The notes beneath the pieces were generated by a model that was given only the letters and a program-made list of their open reading frames with translations, searched no databases and had not been told where the DNA came from. The position numbers were made by a program, and so were the translations under genes. A stretch of DNA of 36,200 nt from Temnopleurus reevesii (lineage: Eukaryota; Echinodermata; Echinoidea; Temnopleuroida; Temnopleuridae): the NCBI GenBank assembly GCA_036244855.1, contig BQKZ01000747.1, positions 111,445 to 147,644 on the forward strand, given 5' to 3'. This document shows, piece by piece, positions 1 through 36,200 of the stretch (its first letter is position 1; every line of letters begins with the position of its first letter).

Positions 1-95
1 AGGTACCAATTCATCGACCCTGGGTCGAGAACAGCATAATGCGGATGAATTTCTTGCTGAAGGAAATTAACATCATGGGTGGGAACATACTGCCC
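1..95 (-). mobile_element. tRNA-derived SINE fragment
   Basis: The reverse complement carries the same body sequence as the plus-strand SINEs at 28418 and 35641 (tttccttcagcaagaaat, then the segment resembling gcactcaacccaggtgag). It is cut off by the window start and lacks the tRNA head. Confidence 0.8.
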
Positions 96-200
96 TCTAG
101 TTGAAAGACGAAAGTCAGAGCCGTATAACAGGATGTGAAGATGGAAATGGGGAGACAGGGAAAGGGGACATTAAGGAATCAGGGGGTAATAAGTACTTAC

Positions 201-291
201 GTCCCAAGTCTGTGCCAGTCTGCTCACACTCATATGACTCAGTCCCATGATGATGGCAAAGAAGGAATTCATATTCTGATACTCCTTACAA
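201..291 (-). CDS. RAPGEF4: EPAC exon, CDC25 catalytic domain (last exon in window)
   Basis: A 91-bp exon, phase 2 in and phase 0 out, reading (H)[19 protein letters not shown], then [11 protein letters not shown]. It matches the CDC25 core CKEYKNLNSFFAIVMGLSN.AVSRL..TW. The acceptor is TTGAATAG|TTG and the donor GAC|GTAAGT. The catalytic domain continues beyond position 1 in exons outside the window. Confidence 0.95.
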
Positions 292-1085
292 CTATTCAAG
301 AATAAGATGAAAAGAAAAGTGAAAACTTTCTATAATATACAGTTTTGCTTTGCATTTCTCACAGAAATTAAGAAACCTCCTTATTGAATAGAAATTCATT
401 CTGATAATGCACAAAATGTGTCCTATTTTTTTTTTACTTATCAGAAAAATCAAGTATCTTTACATTATGTCAATATTTCATTTCAAGGCTTCTTTATTCA
501 GTCATAAAAACCACATTAAAAAGTGACAAAGATAACATTAAATGCAAAAGTATACATCGAAATACAAAAAAAGAAATATACACTGACAATAAAAAATAAA
601 AAAAAAAAAAGACCAAAAATGGCAAATGAGCACTGTAGGGCGGCAGTCAGAGCGGCACCAGTCAACTGTCCCCCCCAAACAAAACCCAAGACTCTGAGCA
701 AGTTTTTCTTTTATCTTTGTTTTATCATATACTTAGTAATCAGCTTTTTCAATTTAATATAAAGATATAAACATTATGTTACCTTGGGGTGGGCGTAATC
801 TGCAAATTATCTATGTTTTGTATAAAAATCACTAATTTCACAATCCTACATTAATAAATAAATACCTAGTATTATCATTTCATGATATCCTACCCAAGAG
901 GTCTATTAAATGGAGGATGAAAATGGATTTAGCACTAATCACAAATTTTGGGGCAATCAACACTTTCCAAATGAGTACCAGAGGACATTAAATCAAGAGT
1001 GGATTGTAAACTCCCTATTTGCACTGATGTAAATCCCTTGCTGAAAGTGTAAGATTAAAAAAAAGATATTGAAGAGCATACTTAC

Positions 1086-1264
1086 TGGGCAGCAATTTTG
1101 ATGAATTTCTTTAGCAGATGGACCCGTTTATTAATGTTTGGTGTCAGACATAGCTCGGTGACGACCCAGGATTGGACTTCATTAAAACGACGGAGGAAGA
1201 CGTCAAGATTAGCTGTGATGCGGCGGTACTTATGCCTCCCAAATGTATGGTAGATGAACTCACA
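1086..1264 (-). CDS. RAPGEF4: EPAC exon, CDC25 catalytic domain
   Basis: A 179-bp exon, phase 0 in and phase 2 out, reading [20 protein letters not shown], then [20 protein letters not shown] and [19 protein letters not shown]. It contains the CDC25 conserved segments NL..FL.RFNE...WV.TE and KFIKIA. The acceptor is TTTAATCAG|TGTG and the donor CCCA|GTAAGT. A 144-bp hairpin element begins 34 bp upstream of the acceptor. Confidence 0.95.
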
Positions 1265-1297
1265 CTGATTAAATTTAAATGAAATAAGAAGAAAATG

Positions 1298-1441
1298 GTA
1301 TACAAATATATACTGTTATGAAAGGTTCTGGTTAAAACTACGGGCCCGATGTGCCTGCAAATAGTTCTTTTGCAGGCACAGAGGGACCATAGTTTCAATC
1401 CAGAACCTTGAATGAACACAGTATATATTTGTTTCATATAC
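1298..1441. repeat. Long hairpin (MITE-like palindrome)
   Basis: Two imperfect arms of about 65 bp (gtatacaaatatatactg... and its complement ...cagtatatatttgtttcat) close on a perfect 12-bp stem, TGTGCCTGCAAA / TTTGCAGGCACA, with a loop of about 7 bases. No coding content. Confidence 0.85.
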
Positions 1442-1803
1442 TGGATTTGTAAAAAGATAAATTAATGGATTTCACATAACACATTGCTCGCTAACACATC
1501 GCTCACCATAACACATCGCTTGCTATTCCGGGTATCCGGGAAGAGCGCCACCAATTGTTTAAATTAGGACATAATCCGTGAATAGTCTTTAGGTACTATT
1601 TACGGATCGATACTAAGATAGTTGGTTTATTTTTAATCAAGTGACATTCATTAAACCAATCAATGAACAGAGATAAATGTATCCAGTATATAATATGTAA
1701 CAGGATTCATGTACAGAATGTTCCGTATTAACCCATTTATTACTGGAACCAGGTAGTCCCATCACATTTATAGAATTCAGTAGTCAATAGGTTGATAGTT
1801 TAA

Positions 1804-1975
1804 CGGGGTGTTGTTCAAAATCAACTGCAAATCAACTGCAACTTTGCAAATTGTAACGCGCATTTCATTTGCGCACGGTACGCGCATTGAAACATTGATT
1901 TTGACTGGCGCGTTCCAATCAACTGCAACTTGCAATCAATTGTAACTTTTGAGCAACACCCCCTTAGACAAACTG
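1804..1975. mobile_element. MITE family M1, copy 1 (3-bp TSD)
   Basis: Ends cggggtgttgttcaaaatca and its inverted partner ttttgagcaacaccccctt, with internal copies of 'caactgcaact' and a CG-rich centre. It is flanked by TTA on both sides. A 3-bp TWA-type target duplication is typical of PIF/Harbinger MITEs (inference). Confidence 0.8.
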
Positions 1976-4352: not shown

Positions 4353-4422
4353 TTTCATCTTTAGCTTTGATTGGTGTTCTATGTAGCTCATCCTCCATGT
4401 GAGTTCTGGATTCACTAAGTAC
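4353..4422 (-). CDS. RAPGEF4: EPAC exon, REM-RA linker
   Basis: A 70-bp exon, phase 0 in and phase 1 out, reading VLSESRTHMEDELHRTPIKA, then KDE. It corresponds to the EPAC2 linker VLLQQFNTGDERAQKRQPI. The acceptor is TGCTACAG|GTAC and the donor GAAA|GTAAGA. The weakly conserved sequence is supported by VL at the start, phase and position. Confidence 0.85.
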
Positions 4423-4656: not shown

Positions 4657-4782
4657 AACTACAATAAATAACATTTGATTATGACCATTCAACATTTCTA
4701 AATCAAATATCTCAGTATTTCCCCAATCCCCTCTATTCTTTTTTGTCTAATTGGAATATCATCTGAGTATCTGATTCAATAT

Positions 4783-4850
4783 GCTTCATATATCCCACCG
4801 CTGCCATCCAAATACAAGCCCGTTATTTGTGGAATGGCCTGTAAGGGAAA
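4783..4850 (-). repeat. GSGGIYEAY repeat, copy 1 of 4
   Basis: The minus strand reads LQAIPQITGLYLDGSGGIYE, then A-Y-stop, after a pyrimidine tract and CAG. Copies lie at 5092-5160, 7886-7950 and 8203-8265. The readable ending is shared by all copies. It may be a transposon end or an unknown terminal exon; I do not recognise it. Confidence 0.6.
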
Positions 4851-5091
4851 AAATATTGAAATACTTATTGTATACCCTGAAATTTGTGGGAATTTCACGG
4901 TTTTGGTCTTGGTCAAAAATTTCCACTTTGTATGATGCACTTTAATATGTGTGTACAAATACTGTGAAATACTGTGAAAATAACAACATGCCAACGTGTT
5001 GAACAGGTTCAAAACCACAAAAAATATATGTATGATAAAATATTGACAATGTTTTTGAAGAGGAAATATCGTCTAAATATCCTGATTCACT

Positions 5092-5160
5092 ATGCTTCAT
5101 ATATCCCACCGCTGCCACCCATATAAGAGCCTGTTATCTTTGGAATGGCTTGTAAGGCAA
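5092..5160 (-). repeat. GSGGIYEAY repeat, copy 2 of 4
   Basis: Reads LQAIPKITGSYMGGSGGIYE, then A and a stop. It lies about 309 bp from copy 1. Confidence 0.6.
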
Positions 5161-5574
5161 TAAGGTAAAAAAATGGTGAAATACATTGTTTTTATGGGTT
5201 TTTTTTACGAGGAGACAACTGCTTCCTTTATTAAACACTGAATCAGTGATTAGCAATACTTAAACAAAAGTCATTTAGACACTCAATCCTACACTTGCAT
5301 TCCACTACATCCAACATACAATTTTTTTTATATAATATAAGATTTGCTACCTTTGTGCAGAAATACACAACAGAGAAGTTTGAATGTTCAATTGTTGGCT
5401 TGTCCTTGACATGCGTCCATGTTAATGTCAGTAAAACACCTATCCTGCATATTCACAGGCTCAGGGACTGCATTTTAAATCTCATACACACTGGGCACAT
5501 AGGTTGGCTATAAAACCAAATAGGAAGTAAGCCTTTGTAAAATCAATCAATTAATGGATCAACTAATTCCCTAC

Positions 5575-5712
5575 CTGTGTTTGGACCTGCCATGTATGTG
5601 ATGCTGAATTCTTTGTAGACTTTACGGCTTTCAAGACCTGCTCCAGACTTGCTAGAGGGTCCTGAAGACTTGGGTACGCTGGACAATCGTCGCACACAGC
5701 TGAGAATAATGT
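5575..5712 (-). CDS. RAPGEF4: EPAC REM-end exon, cassette A
   Basis: A 138-bp exon, phase 0/0, with exactly the same 46-residue product as 8625-8762 and 14 synonymous codon differences. The acceptor is CATGCAG|ACA and the donor CAG|GTAGGG. It is followed in the transcript by exon 4353-4422, which joins in phase 0. Confidence 0.93.
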
Positions 5713-6111
5713 CTGCATGGATACAACCATTGTAATGTGTAATAAAATGATGAATTGCTTACACTACAAGACACAAACTATTCAATATATATCAACTAGT
5801 TTTTTTTCTTCCTTCCCCTTCAGAGTCAATTCACAATGGACAGCAGGGTATACAAATAAACAAGATAGAGAATAGTGAAATACTGCCCTCTGGTTTGAGG
5901 ATGAACAAATCGCAGCTTGTTTTTGTTTATATCCAGGCTGATTATCCTTCAGTGATGATATCATTTGATAAAAAAGTTAATTTCAAAAATCATAAATTGC
6001 CACAGAAACATGAAGAAGATTGCACTTCCCATTTTCATGTTTAAGTATTGGTACATCAAGAAATTAGGATTGATGATTATTGTTTTAAAGTTAATTCTTA
6101 GTTCAGCTTAG

Positions 6112-6230
6112 TTTGTAATTAAGCACCCACCCCCAAATAAATGAACATCATTACCTCTAAGAACTGCATGATGACCGGGATCTTCTTTGAAAGCAAAACC
6201 AGCTACCACATGCCATAAACAGAAAAGCTA
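6112..6230 (-). pseudogene. Third, broken copy of the REM exon (3' part)
   Basis: Minus-strand sequence matching the second half of the REM exon, from LCLWHVVAGFAFKED to the donor GAG|GTAATG. It has a stop where the Gln codon should be and an extra base in GATCCCGGTC that shifts the frame before VIMQFLE. The flanking intron (6112-6152) aligns with 9217-9263, so by position this is the counterpart of the intact exon 9264-9425. The 5' half is missing next to the inserted element at 6293-6785. Confidence 0.82.
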
Positions 6231-6292
6231 GATTTCCCATCTTTTTCTTCTTCATTTTCTAATTAACCGTTTCTTTATTCAAGGTTTACTTA

Positions 6293-6785
6293 GACCCCGG
6301 TTAGATAGCGAGTCTGGGGCTAGCCTAGGCTAGACCAGGGTCAGCCCCAGGCCCGCTGTCTAACCGTTCCAAAAGGACCTTACCCCAACCTAAGTGAGTC
6401 CGTTTTCGGTCTACATATTGGGATCGACCAGACTCCGACTCTGGTTGAGCCCAGTCCCACTGTGTAACCAGGGGTAGACCGATGGGCCCGCTATTTGCGG
6501 TTTTTGTTGACGTCAAATATGTTGACAGATTTTCTATTGCGCCATCGATTGTTTACATGGAAAGTGCCACAACTATCTCACGTTCAAAACGAGCATAGTC
6601 GAGATACAAAAGTGGGCCTGGCACGGGCCACACCGTGGTCTCGGGAGCGGTTAGACAGCGAGACTGGGTTAGCCCAGAGCTGACCCTGGTCTAGCTGTGT
6701 AACCAAGCAAAAGGGGCCGGCCCATGGGCCGGCTCATACCTGGCCTAGGACAGGTATGGGCTAGCCCGTTCTGTCTAACTGAGGA
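6293..6785. mobile_element. Non-autonomous DNA transposon, about 490 bp, GC-richer than its surroundings
   Basis: Terminal inverted repeats GACCCCGGTTAGATAGCGAG and GTCCTCAGTTAGACAGAACG (reverse complement of the right end), flanked by TA on each side. The body has many subterminal copies of ggctagcc, ctgtgtaacca and ggttagacagcgag. No transposase ORF. It interrupts duplicated block A and has no counterpart in block B. Confidence 0.82.
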
Positions 6786-6834
6786 CTAAGAAACCTTCCC
6801 CCTCCCCCAAAAAACAAAGAGTGATAATCTTTAC

Positions 6835-6996
6835 CTCTAAGAACTGCATAATGACTGGATCCTCTTTAAAAGCAAAGCCAGCAACCACATGCCATAGACA
6901 AACCAGCTGGACCACCCTTCTCTTGTTGTTCACGATGTAGTCTATTGTCTCCTGCTCTGGGCCTCTGGATGTCCTCTCAGAGTGATAGGTATGCAA
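6835..6996 (-). CDS. RAPGEF4: EPAC REM exon, cassette A (second in transcript)
   Basis: A 162-bp exon with the same splice sites and phases as 9264-9425. It reads LHTYHSERTSRGPEQETIDY and continues identically. Only residue 2 differs (H here, C in cassette B), while 13 other codons differ silently, including an AGG/CGC Arg swap. The acceptor is CTTGACTAG|TTG and the donor GAG|GTAAAG. It looks fully functional. Confidence 0.93.
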
Positions 6997-7440
6997 CTAG
7001 TCAAGGAGTGAATATTATCAATGAAAACCATCAAGAAATGTCTGTAACTTAACCAAAAATGACTTATTCTGGTCAAATATGGTTAAATATGGCTAGAAGA
7101 TGTTGACAAGCTCAAACTCAAGCTCAAACTTGTATATAATTTTCAAAACTATAAATAAACATTATATTAGTCAAAAAAATATGTGTAATGACTGAGTAAT
7201 GCTCAAATACTATTGAGGAAATGGAACTCGTCATGCCCATAAATGATCTAGCCATATATTCACTGGGTTACAATAAACCATAGGAGAATGTAAACAGGTT
7301 GTTGTTTAGATAAAATGTTCAGTTATCAGTTTTTCACCATTTCGATTAGACATTCCCTGTGCTACTTCTAATGGTAAAATATAAACATCTAGAATTATGC
7401 TCCACAGTTTATTATCAAAATTTACACAGAATCCAGAATC

Positions 7441-7883
7441 CAGACAAGTTTTTTTTTTCTTTTTTTTGACCAGCTGACTGGCTCTCTTTATTTAGCTTCC
7501 AAATCCTGACTGGTAGTACATGTACAATGCATAACATTTTTTCCACATTGAAACAATAGTAAAACATACATCAATTTGTTCATTAACTTATTAAAGTCTG
7601 CCACTTCTTGGCATGAAAAGACAAATTACCTTTTCTTGTTGCTATGATTTTTTCAACTTTTTCTAAATACATAATTTCTTTCTTGAAAAGATTGAAAATT
7701 AGTTGTTTGTCTTGATATTTTTGCTTATAAATAAAGTGTTTACCCGCCAAATGTCTATCAAGTCAAAATCTTCTTTTAAAATGTCAATTTCGGCTTTACA
7801 ATGAGGATGGTATTGTGTATGTAGTGGATGGCGGTCGAGACTAGGGTCTAGTACGGTATTCATATCTCCGCCAATTATGAGTG
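7441..7883 (-). mobile_element. LINE fragment with endonuclease motif (L1/Tx1-like)
   Basis: The minus-strand reading LIIGGDMNTVLDPSLDR ... DLIDIWRVN matches the endonuclease core of L1-like retrotransposons (GGDFN, DR, D.WR; family knowledge). The open part covers about 7699-7883 and is cut at the N at 7884. The remainder is T-rich and not clearly alignable. Short, truncated and inactive. Confidence 0.75.
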
Positions 7884-7885
7884 NA

Positions 7886-7950
7886 TATGCTTCAGATATC
7901 CCACCGCTGCCATCCAAATACAAGCCCGTTATTTGTGGAATGGCCTGTAA
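7886..7950 (-). repeat. GSGGIYEAY repeat, copy 3 of 4
   Basis: Nearly identical to copy 1 (one change, GGISEAY). It is the equivalent of copy 1 in duplicated block B and starts immediately after the N at 7884. Confidence 0.6.
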
Positions 7951-8202
7951 GGGAAAAAATATTGAAATACTTATTGTAGACCCTGAGATTTGTGGGAAAT
8001 TCGCAGTCTTGGTCTCGCAAAAATGTTCACTCTGTATGACCCACTTTCATATGTGTACAGACACTGTCAAAAACGTGACATTAACAACATGCCAACGTGT
8101 TTAACTGGTTCAAAATCATAAAAATATATGTATGCTAAAATATTGACTTACGTGCTAAATTGTTTTCTAGAGGAAATATATAAATATCTTGATATTTATG
8201 CT

Positions 8203-8265
8203 TCATATATCCCACCGCTGCCACCCATATAAGAGCCAGTTGTGTTTGGAATGGAATGTAACACA
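8203..8265 (-). repeat. GSGGIYEAY repeat, copy 4 of 4
   Basis: Reads LHSIPNTTGSYMGGSGGIYE, then A and a stop. It is the equivalent of copy 2 in block B. Confidence 0.6.
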
Positions 8266-8624
8266 TTTTGAATTCCTTCGGATTTTTAAAAGGACACAAA
8301 TACGGCTTCAATCAATCAATGAATGAGTGATCAGGGTGTCCAAAATTAATTATTCAATTCGTCATTTACACACAAAATTCCACACTTACACTTAAATAAA
8401 TCCAATATATGTGTCATTTTAATTTTGTCTTCTTGATGAGGAAATACACACAAAAGGAGCCTGAATATTCATTTTTTTTTGCTTGTCTTTGACATGTTAG
8501 CATCGGCCAAAAGTCTACCCAGTTTTTTATGATCAGGGAGTGCAATTTAAATTTCATATACCCTGAGAATATGATGTGTGATTATGAATCAATCAATTAT
8601 TGGATCAATTGAAATGTACCCTAC

Positions 8625-8762
8625 CTGTGTTTGAACCTGCCATGTATGTGAAGCTGAATTCTTGGTAGATTTTACGGCTTTCAAGACTTGTTCCAGACTC
8701 GCTAGAGGATCTTGAAGACTTGGATAAGCTGGACAATCATCACACACAGCTGAGAATAACGT
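8625..8762 (-). CDS. RAPGEF4: EPAC REM-end exon, cassette B
   Basis: A 138-bp exon of 46 codons, phase 0/0. It reads TLFSAVCDDCPAYPSLQDPL, then ASLEQVLKAVKSTKNSASHT and WQVQTQ. It corresponds to the EPAC segment after FLEE (FYVSVSDDARMI...LPELEKIVKQ). The acceptor is TTTATGCAG|ACG and the donor CAG|GTAGGG. The protein is identical to that of 5575-5712 although 14 codons differ. Confidence 0.93.
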
Positions 8763-9157
8763 CTGCATAAAAATGTTACAATCAAGAATGGGATTGGTTT
8801 GTCATCATCATATTAAAAACTTTGTATACCAACCCATCAGGATTATAAAAGAGAGCCACAAGAATGATTTTGAACTGCAAGGTGCATACGACTTTCAAAA
8901 TAAAAAAATTTCCTTACCTCAAATTTGGCGCCCCCTGGGGGGGCTAAGCACAAATTTTGCCGCCCCTGCCCCTTTGGCGCCCCCTTATAAGCGCATTTAG
9001 TCAACAAATTTTTGCCCCCCCAAAGCCCCCCCCCCCCCTAGTTGCGCGCCTGACTTTAGTGGTATCTTTGTGTTTAAACGTTTCAATGACATGTCAGCAG
9101 GTATTGCAAAAACGTTTACGAAGAAATGTCAATTATGCAAAATATCAACACCCGACA

Positions 9158-9216
9158 AACTAGCTGTACTACTTTTCTCTTGTTGTTCACGATGTTATCT
9201 ATCGTATCTTGTTTCT
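9158..9216 (-). pseudogene. Fourth fragment of the REM exon (middle part)
   Basis: The minus strand carries a decayed version of the EQETIDYIVNNKRRVVQLV coding segment, with insertions and a stop (AGATAA) just before ATCGTGAACAACAAG. It lies 48 bases below the intact exon 9264-9425, with no splice sites. Confidence 0.65.
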
Positions 9217-9263
9217 GCGTTTGTAATCAAGCACACTGTCCCCATATAACAAATCAACGTTAC

Positions 9264-9425
9264 CTCTAAGAACTGCATGATGACAGGATCCTCTTTAAAA
9301 GCAAAACCAGCTACGACGTGCCATAGACAGACCAGCTGTACTACGCGTCTCTTGTTGTTCACTATGTAGTCTATTGTCTCCTGCTCAGGGCCTCTGGATG
9401 TCCTCTCGGAGTGATAGGTACACAA
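9264..9425 (-). CDS. RAPGEF4: EPAC REM exon, cassette B (first in transcript)
   Basis: A 162-bp exon of 54 codons, phase 0/0. It reads LCTYHSERTSRGPEQETIDY, then IVNNKRRVVQLVCLWHVVAG and FAFKEDPVIMQFLE. It matches the EPAC REM segment EQEKMDYALNNKRRV...FLEE. The acceptor is CTTGACTAG|TTG and the donor GAG|GTAACG (strong). It pairs with exon 8625-8762. A second intact version, cassette A, lies downstream. As both cassettes are phase 0/0 and 300 bp together, either or both could be spliced without a frameshift. Confidence 0.93.
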
Positions 9426-9980
9426 CTAGTCAAGGAGTGAATGTTATCACTGAAAAAACCATCAAGGATAAGCTGTTCTTTATCCTACTCACAATAATTT
9501 ATTCTGGTCAAATATGGTCAAATATGGCCAAACAAAACTTGCATATAATTCTCAAAACTATATAAACATTACAGTCCAAAAGAGTATGTAATGACTGAGT
9601 AATGCACAAATACAATTCTGAAAATGGAACCTGTGATGCCTTTGAATAGCCTGGCATTATACATTATTTGCTGGGTTACAGTATAGAAAAAGAGAGAGGA
9701 AGCATGTGGTTATTGATATGAATACATTTATCTCAATTTTCCACCAGTTTGATTACTTCTTCCTTGTGCTACTTCTAATGGTGAAAAATAAACATCTAGA
9801 ATTATGCTCCACAGTTTATTATCAAAATTTACACAGAATCCAGAATTGTAAATAGAATAATCAGAAGACATATAAGATACAAGCAGAGACATGTTAAAAC
9901 CTACATTTTGTAATAGACTTTTGACGGAAAATGACAATAAGATATGAACAAATCGTAAGATCTACAATCCACTTAAGAAC

Positions 9981-10161
9981 ATTCAGTTTTAAAGGATATT
10001 GTTGTAGAAGAGCTGGACAGAGCTTCTCACTGGGCATGAAGACGATGTGTGTGAGGAGAAAGTCCTCAAGGAATGTATCAGTTGGATCATACTTGCTATC
10101 TATCCTCGTTTCTAAGAGATGTTCTAACATCTTTTCTGGAACGCCAGCCATCACTGAATAC
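9981..10161 (-). CDS. RAPGEF4: EPAC exon, start of REM domain
   Basis: A 181-bp exon, phase 2 in. It reads YSVMAGVPEKMLEHLLETRI, then DSKYDPTDTFLEDFLLTHIV and FMPSEKLCPALLQQY. It matches the EPAC REM N-terminus (VMSGTPEKILEH...LCPAL). The acceptor CTCTACAG|GTATT is good. The donor is uncertain: AAT|GTTCTT is the only phase-0 choice I found, giving PLKLN at the end. If the true donor differs, the low boundary shifts by tens of bases. Two partial copies lie immediately upstream in the transcript. Confidence 0.88.
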
Positions 10162-10202
10162 CTGTAGAGGTAAAGAGAGAGAGGGAGAGAGAGAGAGAGA
10201 GA

Positions 10203-10305
10203 TTAAGTCATGAATGTATCGGTTGGATCATACTTGCTATCGATTCTCGTCTCTAAGAGATGCTCTAACATCTTTTCTGGAATGCCAGCCATCACTGAAT
10301 ACCTG
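10203..10305 (-). pseudogene. Partial copy 1 of the first REM exon
   Basis: Retains the acceptor CTCTACAG|GTATT and reads YSVMAGIPEKMLEHLLETRI, then DSKYDPTDTF, followed by M-T-stop. It differs from the true exon by a single amino acid (V to I). It breaks off after 30 codons with no donor and is flanked by (GA)n. Confidence 0.88.
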
Positions 10306-10344
10306 TAGAGGTAAAGAGAGAGGGAGAGAGAGAGAGAGAGAGAG

Positions 10345-10450
10345 AGATTAAGTCATGAATGTATCGGTTGGATCATACTTGCTATCTATTCTTGTATCTA
10401 AGAGATGCTCTTACATCTTTTCTGGAACGCCAGCCATCACTGAATACCTA
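10345..10450 (-). pseudogene. Partial copy 2 of the first REM exon (nonsense mutation)
   Basis: Starts YSVMAGVPEKM, then TAA, then EHLLDTRIDSKYD. The acceptor has become CTGTAG|GTATT. It is the third member of a tandem series with a period of about 141-145 bp, also linked to (GA)n tracts. Confidence 0.85.
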
Positions 10451-10947
10451 CAGAAAGAGAGATAGAGAGAGAGAGAGATAGCACATGTCAACCGAATTGA
10501 CCAATTCTCTCAGAGTTTTTTTTTTTTTTACTCATGATCTTAACTCTCCAAGTTTTTAAAATGTGTTATGATCTCAAGAAGATAGGAAAAAAGCGGACTC
10601 TGTATAGGAATGCAATCAGAATTTCGATCTGGAAAGCCAACCATATAAAACTGTCAAGCTATCAAGCAAAATCTGATATCGTTTCGAGTGTCTCAAACTG
10701 AGTTATGCATGGCTGAGATCTTTTTAATATTTAACTCCATACAGTTTAGGCGGATGTCAACATTGCTTTTAAAATTTGCAAATGACTCTGGAAAATTATT
10801 AGCCAAGCATTCTTTGTGAATCATTTTATTGACACCACTTACTTTTTTAGTGCAATAGTGGAAGGAAAATGAATATAAGCTACCACTGCTGCTAACTTTA
10901 TTGTTTATCCTGATTTTTTTATGGGGGTAAGACCTTGTCTTTCTTAC

Positions 10948-11338: not shown

Positions 11339-11562
11339 CCTAAGTATCCTATTAAAGTCATATTTATCAACCCTCAGAAACTGGCAGTTATCCTCCCGCA
11401 GGACAATGGAAGCGGCTCTTGGAGCATCGTTCACCAAGGCTAGTTTGCCAAAGTCGTCTCCTTCATGTAGCGTACAGACGACACCCTTCCCGTACTTGAC
11501 GACATTTACAGAGCCTCTGAGGATGATAAACCAGGACCGGCCCTCATCACCTTGATGGAATA
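11339..11562 (-). CDS. RAPGEF4: EPAC exon, CNB core with phosphate-binding cassette
   Basis: A 224-bp exon, phase 1 in and phase 0 out. It reads (L)[19 protein letters not shown], then [32 protein letters not shown] and [23 protein letters not shown]. The cassette FGKLAL...PRAAS binds the cAMP phosphate through its Arg (family knowledge). Lys in FGK is the EPAC2 form. The acceptor is TTTCACAG|TATTC and the donor AGG|GTGAGT. A truncated second copy lies 5' of it at about 11637-11802. Confidence 0.96.
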
Positions 11563-11636
11563 CTGTGAAAAAGAGTGAAAAAGAGGTGAAGGTCATGGTC
11601 AATGTCATTTTAAAGTGTGAAGGACATTGTGAAGAC

Positions 11637-11802
11637 GATTGATGCGTCCCTCGGTGCGTCGTTCACCAGGGCAAGTTTGCCAAAGTCATCTCCTTCATGG
11701 AGCGTACAGACGACACCCTTGCCATACTTGACAACGTTTACAGAGCCTCTGAGGATGATAAACCAGGACCGGCCCTCATCACCTTGATGGAATACTGTGA
11801 AA
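11637..11802 (-). pseudogene. Truncated copy of the CNB core exon
   Basis: The copy keeps the acceptor TTTCACAG|TATTC and 56 codons up to [10 protein letters not shown], then runs into intron-like sequence with a stop eight codons later. The part encoding [13 protein letters not shown]...ILR and the donor are absent. The first 18 codons and about 50 bp of flanking intron are almost identical to the true exon. The rest has 15 synonymous and one amino-acid difference (A to D in PRAAS). The A/D change falls inside the cAMP cassette. Confidence 0.92.
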
Positions 11803-12379
11803 GAGAGTGAAAAAGAGGTGAAGGTCATGGTCAATGTCATTTTAAAGGTATTGTGAAAGGCACTATGAATGTCATTATGACAGACCAGACTATGCATGAA
11901 CTATTACTCTTCATTATCTTCATTACCCCTGATGGCATTTTGGTTGAGAGTGGGGGAAAGAGAAGAGGGAAGAGGATTGGGGGAGAGACAGAGCGATTAA
12001 ATATCATGTTCATTGTCTTTGTGAATGATATCTCAAAGTTATCCCATGTGTAAGGAACCACATACAAAGATATTGCAGCCAAAAACACATCTTTATGTTA
12101 CCAAAACTGATCAGTTTTATATTGTGACAGGAGTCAATGGTACTTTAGTAATTGAACAACCTGTTACATTACGTACACATAATACGTCATTATTCTACCT
12201 CCTACCAGAACCCCTCCCCCCAAAAGAAAACAACTCTTGGGTACATGCAGCAGTGTTCATGAATTTCTTGCAGAAGGAAAATCCATGCATTCTTCTCTCA
12301 TGCTAGTAATTTGTATTGTCTTTCTTGTATCTAGTGCTTATATTGTACTTGATTTGAAATGCCAAGTACAAAGTAATAA

Positions 12380-17074: not shown

Positions 17075-17440
17075 CGAGGAAAAGCAGGGAAAATGAGAAG
17101 GAAAGTAAGGGAGATATAGAAAGAGAAAAAAAAGGGATAGAGATATAGCTAAGTAACGAGAGAAAGAGAAAGAGAAAGAGAGAGGAGATTAGAGGATTAG
17201 GGGTTGCAAGAGAGGAAGAGAGAAAGAGAAAAAAGGGAAAGAGATATAGCAAACCAAAGAGAGAAGGAGAAAGAGAAAGAGAGAGGAGATGAGAGGATTA
17301 GGGGTTGCAAGAGAGGATNAGTAAGGGAGATATAGAAAGAGAAAAAAAAGGGAAAGAGATATAGCTAAGTAACGAGAGAAAGAGAAAGAGAAAGAGAGAG
17401 GAGAGAAAAAAAATGAGAGGGGAAGGGTGAGAGGACAGAG
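17075..17440 (+). repeat. Polypurine tract with internal triplication and an N
   Basis: Almost all A/G on the plus strand, built from repeated blocks such as gggaaagagatatagctaag, then gagaaagagaaagag and gaggattaggggttgcaaga. Blocks repeat about every 110-120 bp. An N at 17319 lies inside. Mirror-symmetric polypurine of this kind can form triplex DNA (inference). Confidence 0.85.
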
Positions 17441-21313: not shown

Positions 21314-21497
21314 GGTTTTCTTAGAATGAGTCTCATCATGGCGTCTGGGGCAACTTTGGCCAGCATCCCAACAATCTCTGGAAGCTCCTCCTCCGCTGCC
21401 TTCTTCTGGGATGAGGTTGGGGTGCTGGTGATGCCCAGATCATCTTCGCGGAACCGGTATTGGTGGCCTGCATCTTGGAATGGATGTTCCCTGTTCA
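21314..21497 (-). CDS. RAPGEF4: EPAC exon, end of DEP and DEP-CNB linker helix
   Basis: A 184-bp exon, phase 1 in and phase 2 out. It reads (V)NREHPFQDAGHQYRFREDD, then a linker, then EIVGMLAKVAPDAMMRLILR-K-P. It corresponds to the EPAC2 segment that starts (V)DQEHHFQD and ends MRMILRKP. The acceptor is CTTCCAG|TGAAC and the donor CC|GTGAGT (strong). It is the founder or endpoint of a nine-member tandem array extending to about 22862. Confidence 0.93.
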
Positions 21498-21568
21498 CTG
21501 GAAGTTTGAAAAAAGAAAACAACCTTTAAACATCAATATCAACATTTCTGTCACATATGCTGTTGTGC

Positions 21569-21658
21569 AGAGATGAGATGGAGAGCTGGAAGTGCCCAGA
21601 TCATCTTCACAGAACCGGTATTGGTGGCCCACATCTTGGAATGGATGTTCCCTGTTAA
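21569..21658 (-). pseudogene. Exon-derived repeat copy C1
   Basis: Partial copy of exon 21314-21497: the acceptor CCAG|TTAACAGG is kept and the reading VNREHPFQDVGHQYRFCEDD stays open for about 30 codons, with no donor. It diverges after SSSPS. The next members are C2 to C8. Confidence 0.8.
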
Positions 21659-21735
21659 CTGGAAATGTAGAATAGAAATATCACCAAAGGAGAAGATGTT
21701 ATAGATAGTTCAGTCCTCAAAGATGTCGACCATCT

Positions 21736-21830
21736 TGTTTTGAGGTGACGTTGGGGTGATGGTGATGCCCAGATTGTCTTCAAGGAACTAGTATTAGTGG
21801 CCCGCATCTTGGAATGGATGTTCATTGTCT
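21736..21830 (-). pseudogene. Exon-derived repeat copy C2 (two stop codons)
   Basis: Aligns as NEHPFQDAGH-stop-Y-stop-FLEDNLGI. The acceptor is disrupted by an insertion (gtctgttatc instead of ctgttaactgg). Clearly non-functional. Confidence 0.78.
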
Positions 21831-21852
21831 GTTATCAAACAGGAAGATGAAG

Positions 21853-22013
21853 AATGGCATCTGGAGCAACCTTGGCCAGCATCCCAACAATCTCTGGTAG
21901 CTCCTCCTGAGCTGCCTTTTTCTGAGATGAGGTCGGAGTACTGGTAATGCCCAGATCATCTTCACAGAACCGATATTGGTGGTTCGCATCTTGGAAGGTA
22001 TGCTCTCTGTTAA
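21853..22013 (-). pseudogene. Exon-derived repeat copy C3, nearly full length and open
   Basis: Covers about 53 of the 61 codons of exon 21314-21497 with no stop: VNREHTFQDANHQYRFCEDD, then a linker ending EIVGMLAKVAPDA. The acceptor is retained, but the last part (MMRLILRKP) and the strong donor are missing. Against the true exon I count about 16 synonymous and 4 amino-acid differences (P/T, G/N, R/C, E/Q), a pattern of past coding constraint. Confidence 0.85.
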
Positions 22014-22091
22014 CTGGTAGATGAAGAAGAAAAATATCATTTAAAGAGAAGATTTTTACACATAATTCATTCTTAGAAGATGACCAACCGT

Positions 22092-22189
22092 CTTATTCTA
22101 GGATGAGGTTGGGGTACTGGTGATGTCGAGATTGTCTTCAAGGAACTGGTATTGGTGGCCCGCATCTTGGGATGGATGTTCTCGGTTAA
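22092..22189 (-). pseudogene. Exon-derived repeat copy C4
   Basis: Reads VNREHPSQDAGHQYQFLEDN, then LDITSTPTSS and a stop. The acceptor CCAG|TTAACCG is retained. There is no donor. Confidence 0.78.
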
Positions 22190-22249
22190 CTGGAAGAGAG
22201 AGAAGGGAAGATTTTTCAGATAATTCATTACTCAATGATGACCAACTGT

Positions 22250-22347
22250 CTTATTCTGAGATGATGTTGGGGTGCAAGTGATGCCCAAATCGTCTTCACT
22301 GAACCAGTATTGGTGGCCTGCATAGTGGAAGGAATGTTCCCTGTTAA
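22250..22347 (-). pseudogene. Exon-derived repeat copy C5 (open)
   Basis: Reads VNREHSFHYAGHQYWFSEDD, then LGITCTPTSSQNK, with no stop. The acceptor is retained; no donor is visible. Confidence 0.78.
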
Positions 22348-22424
22348 CTGGAGATGGAGAATAGAAATATCACCAAAGGAGAAGATGTTATAGACAGTTC
22401 ATTCCTCAAAGATGTCAACTGTCT

Positions 22425-22530
22425 TATTCTGAGGTGATGTTGGCGTACTTTTTTGTATTAGTGATGCCCAGATCATCTTCTCGAACCCGATATTGGTGGC
22501 CCGCATCTTGGAAGGAATGCTCTCTGTTGA
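22425..22530 (-). pseudogene. Exon-derived repeat copy C6 (open)
   Basis: Reads VNREHSFQDAGHQYRVREDD, then LGIT and a small insertion. The acceptor CCAG|TCAACAG is retained; there is no donor. Confidence 0.78.
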
Positions 22531-22608
22531 CTGGAAGATGGAGAAAGAGAAATATCATTTAAAGGGAAGAGTTTTAAACATAATTCATTCCTAAAAGATG
22601 ACCAACTG

Positions 22609-22707
22609 CTTTAATTTGGGATGAGGTTGGGGTAGTGATGATGCCCAGATTGTCTTTTCGGAACCAGTTCTGATGCCCTGCATCTTGGAAAGGATGTTTT
22701 CTGATAA
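22609..22707 (-). pseudogene. Exon-derived repeat copy C7 (open)
   Basis: Reads VIRKHPFQDAGHQNWFRKDN, then LGIITTPTSSQIK, open. The acceptor is retained; there is no donor. Confidence 0.77.
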
Positions 22708-22779
22708 CTGGTAGATGAGAAGAGAAATAATTTATGTAAAGTGAATATTCTACAGACTTCTAATACCTCAAAGATTCCC

Positions 22780-22862
22780 AAGTGAGGTGTAATACTTTGA
22801 TTATATTCACGAAACGATATTGATGGCCTACATCAGCATCTTTACGGGATTTACTCTGTTGA
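22780..22862 (-). pseudogene. Exon-derived repeat copy C8 (most decayed)
   Basis: Only VNR at the start and GHQYRF in the middle are recognisable, and the two are out of frame with each other. It marks the far end of the array. Confidence 0.6.
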
Positions 22863-23491: not shown

Positions 23492-23590
23492 ACCTTTTAG
23501 TAAAGCAAGCCATATCCATTTGGTCTCAGGTTGCAACTTTACCAGTGACATCTGACATTGCCTCACTAGCCAATCAACCATCTCCCATTA
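23492..23590 (-). pseudogene. Partial copy 2 of the DEP exon (3' half), more decayed
   Basis: The minus-strand reading EMVDWLVRQCQMSLVKLQPE, then TKWIWLALLKG, again aligns with the middle and end of the DEP exon. It is open but diverged, and lacks the conserved end VITEG and the donor. Together with 23650-23770 and the true exon it makes a three-member tandem series with spacing of about 160-180 bp. Confidence 0.75.
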
Positions 23591-23649
23591 TATTTATAAT
23601 TCTTTGAAATACATTTTTTTTAAAAATAAATTCAATGAAGAATATTCAT

Positions 23650-23770
23650 CTAAGCCTTCAGTGATGACCGGCTCATGTAGAAAGGTCTGGCAAGTCCCTA
23701 TGGCCGGGGGTCGCGACCTCACCAGTGACATCTTGCCTCGTCTCACCAGCCAATCAACCAGTTCCCATTA
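23650..23770 (-). pseudogene. Partial copy 1 of the DEP exon (3' half)
   Basis: The minus-strand reading LVDWLVRRGKMSLVRSRP, then AIGTCQTFLHEPVITEGL, aligns with the real exon's VDWLMQQGQMSLVRSRPQAIGMWQALLEEGVITEG. It is open in frame but lacks the first half of the exon, has no acceptor at an equivalent site, and the donor position reads GGCTTA instead of GGTTTG. It is a tandem copy of the neighbouring DEP exon and probably not spliced. Confidence 0.8.
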
Positions 23771-23834
23771 TTTTATAGTTCTCCCAAATCTCTTTAAAAA
23801 AATACAAATTAAATTAAAAAATACTTCTTCAAAC

Positions 23835-24069
23835 CTTCAGTAATGACTCCCTCTTCCAAAAGGGCCTGCCACATCCCTATAGCTTGAGGTCGTGACCTGA
23901 CCAATGACATTTGACCTTGCTGCATCAGCCAATCAACCATCTCCGATCCCACCATGCACTTGCGATAAGTTCGTAGGTTGTTCTTCCTGTCCTTGATGAG
24001 GTTCGGTGACTTGGCAAGCACAAGAGTTCTGAAGATGGTCCCTGCATGTGACAGCCTGTCTGATGGCAC
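23835..24069 (-). CDS. RAPGEF4: EPAC exon, DEP domain (first part)
   Basis: A 235-bp exon, phase 0 in and phase 1 out, of 78 codons plus one base. It starts VPSDRLSHAGTIFRTLVLA and includes the DEP core IKDRKNNLRTYRKCMVGSEM followed by VDWLMQQGQ. It matches the EPAC DEP domain, which moves the protein to membranes (family knowledge). The acceptor is CCCCCAG|GTG; the donor is GAAG|GTTTGA, a weak but usable site. Two degenerate copies of its 3' half lie just downstream in the transcript (about 23650-23770 and 23492-23590). Confidence 0.93.
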
Positions 24070-28417: not shown

Positions 28418-28690
28418 AGGAATCGTGGTGTAGTGGTTCTGACTCTCACCTTTCAACCCGAGGGTCGTAGGTTCGAATCCTACCCATGGCGTCAATTTCC
28501 TTCAGCAAGAAATTTATCCACATTGTTCTGCACTCAACCCAGATGAGGTGAATGGGTACCGGTAGGAAGAAATTCCTTGAATGCAGTGAGTACCGAATGG
28601 TAGCCATGCTATAGTCAGGTAATAATGCACAGTGCGCTTAGAAACACTTTGTATTAAGTGCTATATAAATGTTGTGTATTATCATTATTC
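28418..28690 (+). mobile_element. tRNA-derived SINE, full length
   Basis: tRNA-like head with A-box region (tagtggttctgac, from 28431) and B box ggttcgaatcc (28470-28480), then the body tttccttcagcaagaaattt and cactcaacccagatgagg, and the tail agtgctatataaatg ... atcattatt. Transcribed by RNA polymerase III if active (family knowledge). Confidence 0.9.
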
Positions 28691-35636: not shown

Positions 35637-35930
35637 ATGGGAGCGTCGTGGTGTAGTGGTTCGGACTCTCGCCTCTTAACTAGAGGGTCGGTGGTTCGAA
35701 TCTCTCCCAGGGCGTTAATTTCCTTCAGCAAGAAATTTACCCATAGTGTGCTGCACTCAACCCAGGTGAGTTGAATGGGTACCTGGCAGGAATCTTTATT
35801 CCTTGAAATGCCAAGTGTGCTGGTGGCTGCCGGGCTAAAGCCAGGGTAATAAATGCAAAGCGCCTTGAGCACTCAGCAATGAGAGTGGATACGTGCGCTA
35901 TATAAATTGCATATATTATTATTATATATA
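35637..35930 (+). mobile_element. tRNA-derived SINE, full length
   Basis: A-box region gtgtagtggttcggac and B box ggttcgaatct (35693-35703), the same body as at 28418, with additional 'gccgggctaaagccagggta' and the tail 'gcgctatataaattgcat' plus (TAT)n. Confidence 0.9.
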
Positions 35931-36013: not shown

Positions 36014-36200
36014 CTATGGTGTAGCGCGATGGTTCTGACTCTCGCCTTTCAACCAGAGGGTCGTAGGTTCGAATTCCACTGATGGTGTTGATCTCCTTAA
36101 GCAAGAACTTTATCCACATAGTGCTGCACTCGACCCAGGTGAGGTAAATGGGGATGGCAGCAAGAAACTTCTTGTAAATAGGAGCGCTGGTAATAGTGAG
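36014..36200 (+). mobile_element. tRNA-derived SINE, truncated by window end
   Basis: Head 'tatggtgtagcgcgatggtt' + 'ctgactctcgcc' with B box ggttcgaattc (36066-36076), then the same body (ttaagcaagaactttatcca). It lies about 80 bp downstream of the previous SINE in the same orientation. Confidence 0.88.

Follow-up and report, generated by a model that had tools for sequence, protein, structure and literature searches.

The window analysed here is a 36,200-nucleotide stretch of the genome assembly of the sea urchin Temnopleurus reevesii (GCA_036244855.1; contig BQKZ01000747.1, hereafter C747, positions 111445-147644), whose minus strand holds most of a gene of the EPAC family (RAPGEF3/4). Two neighbouring exons of this gene, which we call E1 and E2, occur in it twice, as cassettes A and B, and we think it probable that these are two diverged haplotype copies of one E1-E2 pair, placed next to each other across the single N at position 7884. 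We infer the allelism of the copies from what was observed directly, namely the position of that N, the geometry of the overlap around it and a 99.4% identical overlap at the opposite end of the contig that carries cassette A. The two results that weigh most are this last overlap, which covers two guanine-nucleotide exchange factor (GEF) exons, and a shape with alike outer edges that is common to the blocks around cassettes A and B and to the overlap at another single-N gap of the assembly, C79:211423.

As we picture it, two haplotype copies would have been assembled as overlapping contigs and placed in tandem across the N, the left contig having stopped, presumably, because its haplotype carries an insertion resembling a long interspersed element (LINE). 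Each chromosome would carry one cassette, and silent and intronic sites would have drifted apart while both alleles stayed working, which would explain why both versions encode the same 98 residues.

The gene and its relatives

The joined exons of the window match the Pfam domains DEP (PF00610), cNMP_binding (PF00027), RasGEF_N (REM; PF00618) and RasGEF (PF00617), in the same order as in known EPAC proteins, as well as RAPGEF4 chains in PDB (phmmer, best E = 4.3e-46). The first cyclic-nucleotide domain of EPAC was not seen in the window; otherwise the protein shows nothing notable. A protein sequence search gave four matches among 52 candidates, all from echinoderms, namely Strongylocentrotus purpuratus RAPGEF4 (92% over the searched region), Diadema antillarum (87%), Asterias rubens (61%) and Patiria miniata (55%), and all four records carry the E1-E2 segment once. 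In a query with a Pfam REM match at residues 308-420, E1 corresponds to residues 369-419 and would thus contribute the second half of the REM domain, while E2 would contribute the stretch that comes after it. The assembly used for the genome searches comprises 558 Mb in 10433 contigs. E1 had no match in the plasmid collection, and among the matches listed from open-licence literature we found no description of an EPAC exon duplication or of a minor intron in RAPGEF4.

Two copies of an exon pair

A sequence-only reading of the window had reported two intact two-exon REM cassettes with identical splice sites, and the sequence bears out that both are present on the minus strand and open (Table 1). 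The GT donors of E1 and E2 and the AG acceptor of E2 are indeed shared by the two copies, but the phase-0 AG acceptor proposed for E1 is not the right border, as it would add residues (LCT or LHT) that are lacking from all four echinoderm proteins found. With the borders corrected, E1 and E2 together make 292 nt per cassette, and the two cassettes are identical at 98/98 residues, even though 27 codons differ silently through 28 changed bases, a codon count that agrees with the earlier one. These differences affect 15/42 fourfold degenerate sites and 12/53 other degenerate third positions. A comparison of nonsynonymous with synonymous divergence, which that reading had proposed, gave a synonymous divergence (dS) of 0.61 by the NG86 method with zero residue changes over the 98. 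By comparison, S. purpuratus differs over this segment of 98 residues by seven replacements and one insertion, counted by eye. The argument that both copies have been under protein-level selection is thus supported, 27 codons having changed silently and not a single residue; divergence confined to silent sites is equally expected, however, from two functional alleles.

When the E1 DNA (162 nt) was searched against its own genome, it was found in four places, all inside the window: the two exons and two short decayed remnants, one lying between E1 and E2 in each block. It is likely that an E1 duplication predates the split of A and B. As a means of polarising the silent changes the remnants were uninformative, the one in block A agreeing with A at 8 sites, with B at 13 and with neither at 4, and the one in block B agreeing with A at 4 sites, with B at 5 and with neither at 4.

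An assembly gap between the copies

The window contains two N positions, 7884 and 17319, and the first of them, which the sequence-only reading had overlooked, sits exactly where copy B begins. By blastn, positions 4779-5718 match 7885-8768 at 73% and positions 6831-7439 match 9260-9846 at 78%. Two features looked for in a false haplotype duplication are present: an assembly gap lies between the copies, and the head of the right contig is homologous, from the first base after the N, to a stretch inside the tail of the left contig. The left tail matches the right contig up to 445 bases before the N, and its last 445 bases are unmatched and LINE-like. Block A alone also holds, between its E1 and E2, a high-copy repeat of about 510 bp, probably a mobile element, which matches at least 39 other places in the genome (best 40 of 959 candidates scored).

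The divergence between the blocks is unevenly spread, since the three outer-edge windows show 7/180 mismatches against 228/962 in the remaining intron columns. Such alike outer edges are expected of haplotypes that rejoin a common sequence, while an old tandem duplication gives no reason for them. Fourfold sites differ more than intron sites (15/42 against 235/1142; Fisher p = 0.03), but because the intron edges are unusually alike we make no claim that the exons evolve faster than the introns.

A second and clear false duplication was found in the same gene. The head of the left contig (window positions 1-1728), with two GEF exons, is repeated with 7/1727 mismatches at C747:99594-101323, which is the tail of a neighbouring contig and is directly followed by another single N (C747:101324). 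The two GEF exons of the EPAC gene are thereby doubled, and a genome-wide protein search shows the same. Between the two GEF-exon copies lie a 6-kb contig and a run of N, and that contig has only four short matches to its surroundings. It is from this overlap, together with the geometry of the gap at 7884, that a haplotype or assembly artefact, which the sequence-only reading had itself named as the finding that would overturn its proposal, has become the leading explanation.

Contig junctions elsewhere in the assembly

A single N is a convention for negative gaps, although our literature search did not confirm it. Among six single-N gaps, four begin with homology between their flanks (window positions 7884 and 17319, C79:211423 and C8289:9601) and three have a match of at least 200 columns. 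At window position 17319, 85 bases of the left contig recur in the right one at 98.8%, inside a GA-rich repeat. No starting homology was found at the other two, C747:101324 and the gap on C6498, which has only 346 bases on its right. At random N-free positions with the same 6-kb reach, a match started within 5 bases in 20/400 cases, reached at least 200 columns in 3/400 and touched both ends in 7/400; with a 3-kb reach the corresponding control gave 15 and 4 of 300. Long runs of N with usable flanks never began with homology (0/6), and one of them has a 51-base match touching its left end.

Two of the single-N gaps overlap from end to end, C79:211423 with right 1-1793 matching left 1821..2, and C8289:9601 in several pieces with right 1-1516 matching left 1105..1. 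In the former, there are 5 mismatches in the first 500 aligned bases, then nine interior windows that range from 15/96 to 37/88, and at the far end five windows with 2/99, 4/100, 4/99, 16/99 and 1/77. Mostly near-identical ends thus flank about 900 bases with 16-42% mismatch per window in this 1.8-kb overlap, and its interior is possibly a hyper-divergent haplotype tract.

The arrangement resembles false heterotype duplication, as outlined in the portions of PMC2864568 and PMC9516828 available to us, in that similar stretches overlap in neighbouring contigs flanking a gap while the parts of the gene outside are single-copy; 'duplicated overlapping contigs' are treated in the excerpted text of PMC2864568. 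It differs from those cases in its divergence, about 20% in introns with the dS given above, which is far over the usual allelic range. Very old haplotype divergence at restricted places is also the theme of work on hyper-divergent haplotypes of Caenorhabditis (PMC11291142) and Heligmosomoides (PMC10682056); unlike those, the present case lies in a conserved signalling gene whose protein is the same in both copies, and it is known from one assembly.

Several points weigh against the haplotype explanation. Its main weakness is the dS of 0.61, which is very high for alleles and, to our knowledge, far above any ordinary allelic value. The introns are no easier to reconcile with it, with 235/1142 positions mismatched and a further 152 gap columns. 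For scale, a heterozygosity of 3.2-4.2% is termed exceptionally high in amphioxus in the excerpted text of PMC12862219. On the measured divergence, ordinary alleles of low divergence are rejected; haplotypes would have to be strongly diverged to fit. Taken as a whole, the other overlaps show less divergence, with 255/1738 mismatches at C79 and 112/1065 at C8289 besides the 7/1727 of the GEF-exon repeat, and C8289 lacks a clean pattern of alike ends (1/100, then 27/99). The overlap of A and B is an incomplete dovetail, because the last 445 bases of the left contig are unmatched, and its left alike edge lies within an element present four times in the window, so that the likeness there could stem from a locally repeated element. 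Moreover, the sample of single-N gaps is small and non-random, three of the six being on this scaffold and two more having come with the matches of one repeat. Finally, real tandem duplication does occur in this gene, since short partial-exon copies sit inside its contigs without any N.

A predicted minor intron ahead of E1

Applying what we take to be the U12-type consensus for the 5' splice site and the branch point, we found ATATCCTTT at position 9999, directly after the end of the upstream exon, and in exact form nowhere else in the window on either strand. The branch motif TCCTTGAC occurs on the minus strand exactly twice, at 9436 and 7007, just ahead of the two copies of E1, both of which are preceded by TCCTTGACTAGTTGxxTAC with an AC acceptor. 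The evidence is the position of the motifs and not their number, because degenerate U12 motifs were found 2 and 5 times in the window against 1.1 and 2.0 expected. The intron ahead of E1 is therefore predicted to be of the U12-type AT-AC class, and the upstream exon would be joined to E1 by the minor spliceosome and E1 to E2 through a GT-AG intron.

The AT-AC junction gives CPALLQ-H-YHSERTSRG where S. purpuratus RAPGEF4 reads CPALLQHYHSERTSSRG; the join yields CPALLQHYHSERTSRG, which is matched in that protein save for one inserted serine, and in the alignment the junction is consistent with the homologous protein, which has CPALLQHYHSERT. With the border of E1 moved to the AC acceptor, E1 is 154 nt long and entered in phase 2, and the one amino-acid change that had been reported between the copies (C/H at residue 2) consequently falls in the intron.

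Alternative explanations

A real and old tandem duplication, with cassette B followed by cassette A on one chromosome and the U12 donor joining either E1, is unlikely in our judgement, but we keep some room for it because of the size of the divergence, which is too high for ordinary alleles, and because of the tandem partial-exon copies within contigs. Both copies are intact and so are both predicted U12 acceptors. A join of the E2 donor of copy B to the AC acceptor of E1 in copy A shifts the frame and runs into a stop 154 residues along the modelled stretch, while each single cassette and the mixed E1B-E2A combination join in frame and give the same protein. Also in frame are E2B plus E2A after E1B, and a join of E2B to an AG that lies 8 nt upstream of the AC acceptor, which meets no stop. 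U12 and U2 splice sites are generally incompatible, according to the excerpted text of PMC3584512, and in the part of PMC5740500 available five human exon clusters are attributed to U2/U12 incompatibility and 377 to frame incompatibility. Since the U2 donor of E2B should not join a U12 acceptor and the frame would shift as well, the cassettes are predicted to be mutually exclusive, with one protein product, if the duplication is real.

Against a tandem duplication stand the N exactly at the border of the unit, the outer edges that are far less diverged than the interior, the clear false duplication at the adjoining contig junction and the single E1-E2 segment in the four echinoderm records. 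The proposals that had been made for the two copies, mutually exclusive cassettes or a protein with a repeated REM segment, are accordingly unsupported, as the copies abut at a gap with overlap geometry and the adjoining junction is doubled in the assembly at 99.4% identity. That the duplication is real and that spliceosome type and frame together force a one-or-other use of two REM cassettes with identical protein we hold to be improbable. If it were true, nothing but splicing rate, dosage or mRNA sequence would depend on which cassette is chosen, and this would amount to a protein-silent form of mutually exclusive splicing. Such a locus would be like the clusters enforced by U2/U12 incompatibility, as presented in the excerpts of PMC5740500 and, for the JNK genes, of PMC3584512, in having a predicted U12 acceptor for each copy, U2 donors and a frame clash, and unlike them in that its copies encode an identical protein and are known as a tandem only across an assembly gap.

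It is very unlikely that two EPAC loci (paralogues) or two species were the sources of the left and middle contigs and that these were wrongly scaffolded together, although in their silent divergence the copies look like separate loci or species. EPAC protein matches genome-wide fall on this scaffold in 33 of 36 cases, and the remaining three are a RasGEF relative on C1951 (two rows, 45% and 39%) and a short N-terminal match on C1078, so that the functional paralogue once suggested as the source of one cassette is disfavoured. The other EPAC exons have no second copy elsewhere in the assembly, in which stretches of N are unsearchable, the E1 DNA matches only here, and the presence in each block of an E1 remnant flanked by E1 and E2 is as expected of copies of one locus. 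Hardly credible, finally, is the inclusion of both cassettes in one mRNA as a repeat of about 100 residues: the E2B join to the upstream AG is in frame and without a stop, but it requires the duplication to be real, its AG site is not reflected in the four related proteins, and repeating E1 would probably disturb the REM domain, since E1 makes up the latter half of the REM domain as matched by Pfam.

Other features of the window

Partial-exon tandem copies occur at several exons of the EPAC gene. At positions 10000-10481 the acceptor and 5' part of a REM exon recur in tandem, in units of about 141-145 bp, of which only the last (10000-10160) is complete. At 11402-11869 there are tandem 232-bp copies (89%) of a cyclic-nucleotide-domain exon with no N between them, the upstream copy being truncated. 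About eight tandem copies of 158-183 bp, comprising part of an EPAC exon after the DEP domain, lie at 21335-22784, and the 3' part of the DEP exon is present in three tandem copies about 180 bp apart at 23498-23953. A dispersed repeat that looks tRNA-derived, like a short interspersed element, by eye is found at 28423-28560, 35646-35783 and 36019-36156, and on the other strand at 1-122.

Table 1. Positions of the features discussed, in window coordinates.
Feature	Position	Strand	Basis
Left contig head with two GEF exons, repeated at C747:99594-101323	1..1728	-	99.4% identity
Next EPAC exon after E2 (3' border by eye)	4363..4422	-	Translation
Block A, left-contig part homologous to block B	4779..7439	-	blastn
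E2 copy A, 138 nt, U2-type GT donor	5575..5712	-	Sequence, codon comparison
Decayed remnant of 3' half of E1, between E1A and E2A	6152..6245	-	Genome/window sequence comparison
High-copy repeat of about 510 bp, probably a mobile element, block A only	6285..6795		Genome search
E1 copy A, 154 nt, corrected border	6835..6988	-	Motif positions, codon comparison
Predicted U12 branch motif TCCTTGAC and AC acceptor, E1 copy A	6989..7007	-	Motif search
LINE-like remnant in which the left contig ends, poly-A side at 7448	7448..7883	-	Read by eye
Single-N assembly gap between copies A and B	7884..7884		N positions in window
Block B, middle-contig part homologous to block A, from first base after N	7885..9846	-	blastn
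E2 copy B, 138 nt, U2-type GT donor	8625..8762	-	Sequence, codon comparison
Decayed remnant of middle of E1, between E1B and E2B	9154..9211	-	Genome/window sequence comparison
E1 copy B, 154 nt, corrected border	9264..9417	-	Motif positions, codon comparison, fit to homologous protein
Predicted U12 branch motif TCCTTGAC and AC acceptor, E1 copy B	9418..9436	-	Motif search
Predicted U12-type 5' splice site ATATCCTTT	9991..9999	-	Unique exact match, both strands considered
Upstream EPAC exon, first half of REM, ending ...CTACAACA before the predicted U12-type donor	10000..10160	-	Sequence, translation, protein alignment

Conclusions

Once the border of E1 is corrected, the observation of two cassettes that differ only silently is right, and their doubling most likely arose during assembly from haplotypes that have diverged. 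The puzzle of why two cassettes should be kept for one protein is thereby removed, and the case illustrates that haplotypes left unmerged in the assembly of a polymorphic genome can look like an exon duplication under selection. Two features would be of interest if they are real: short tracts in which two haplotypes would be 20-35% apart at silent and intron sites, with flanks that are much more alike, and, within the REM region of EPAC, the predicted AT-AC intron of the U12 type.

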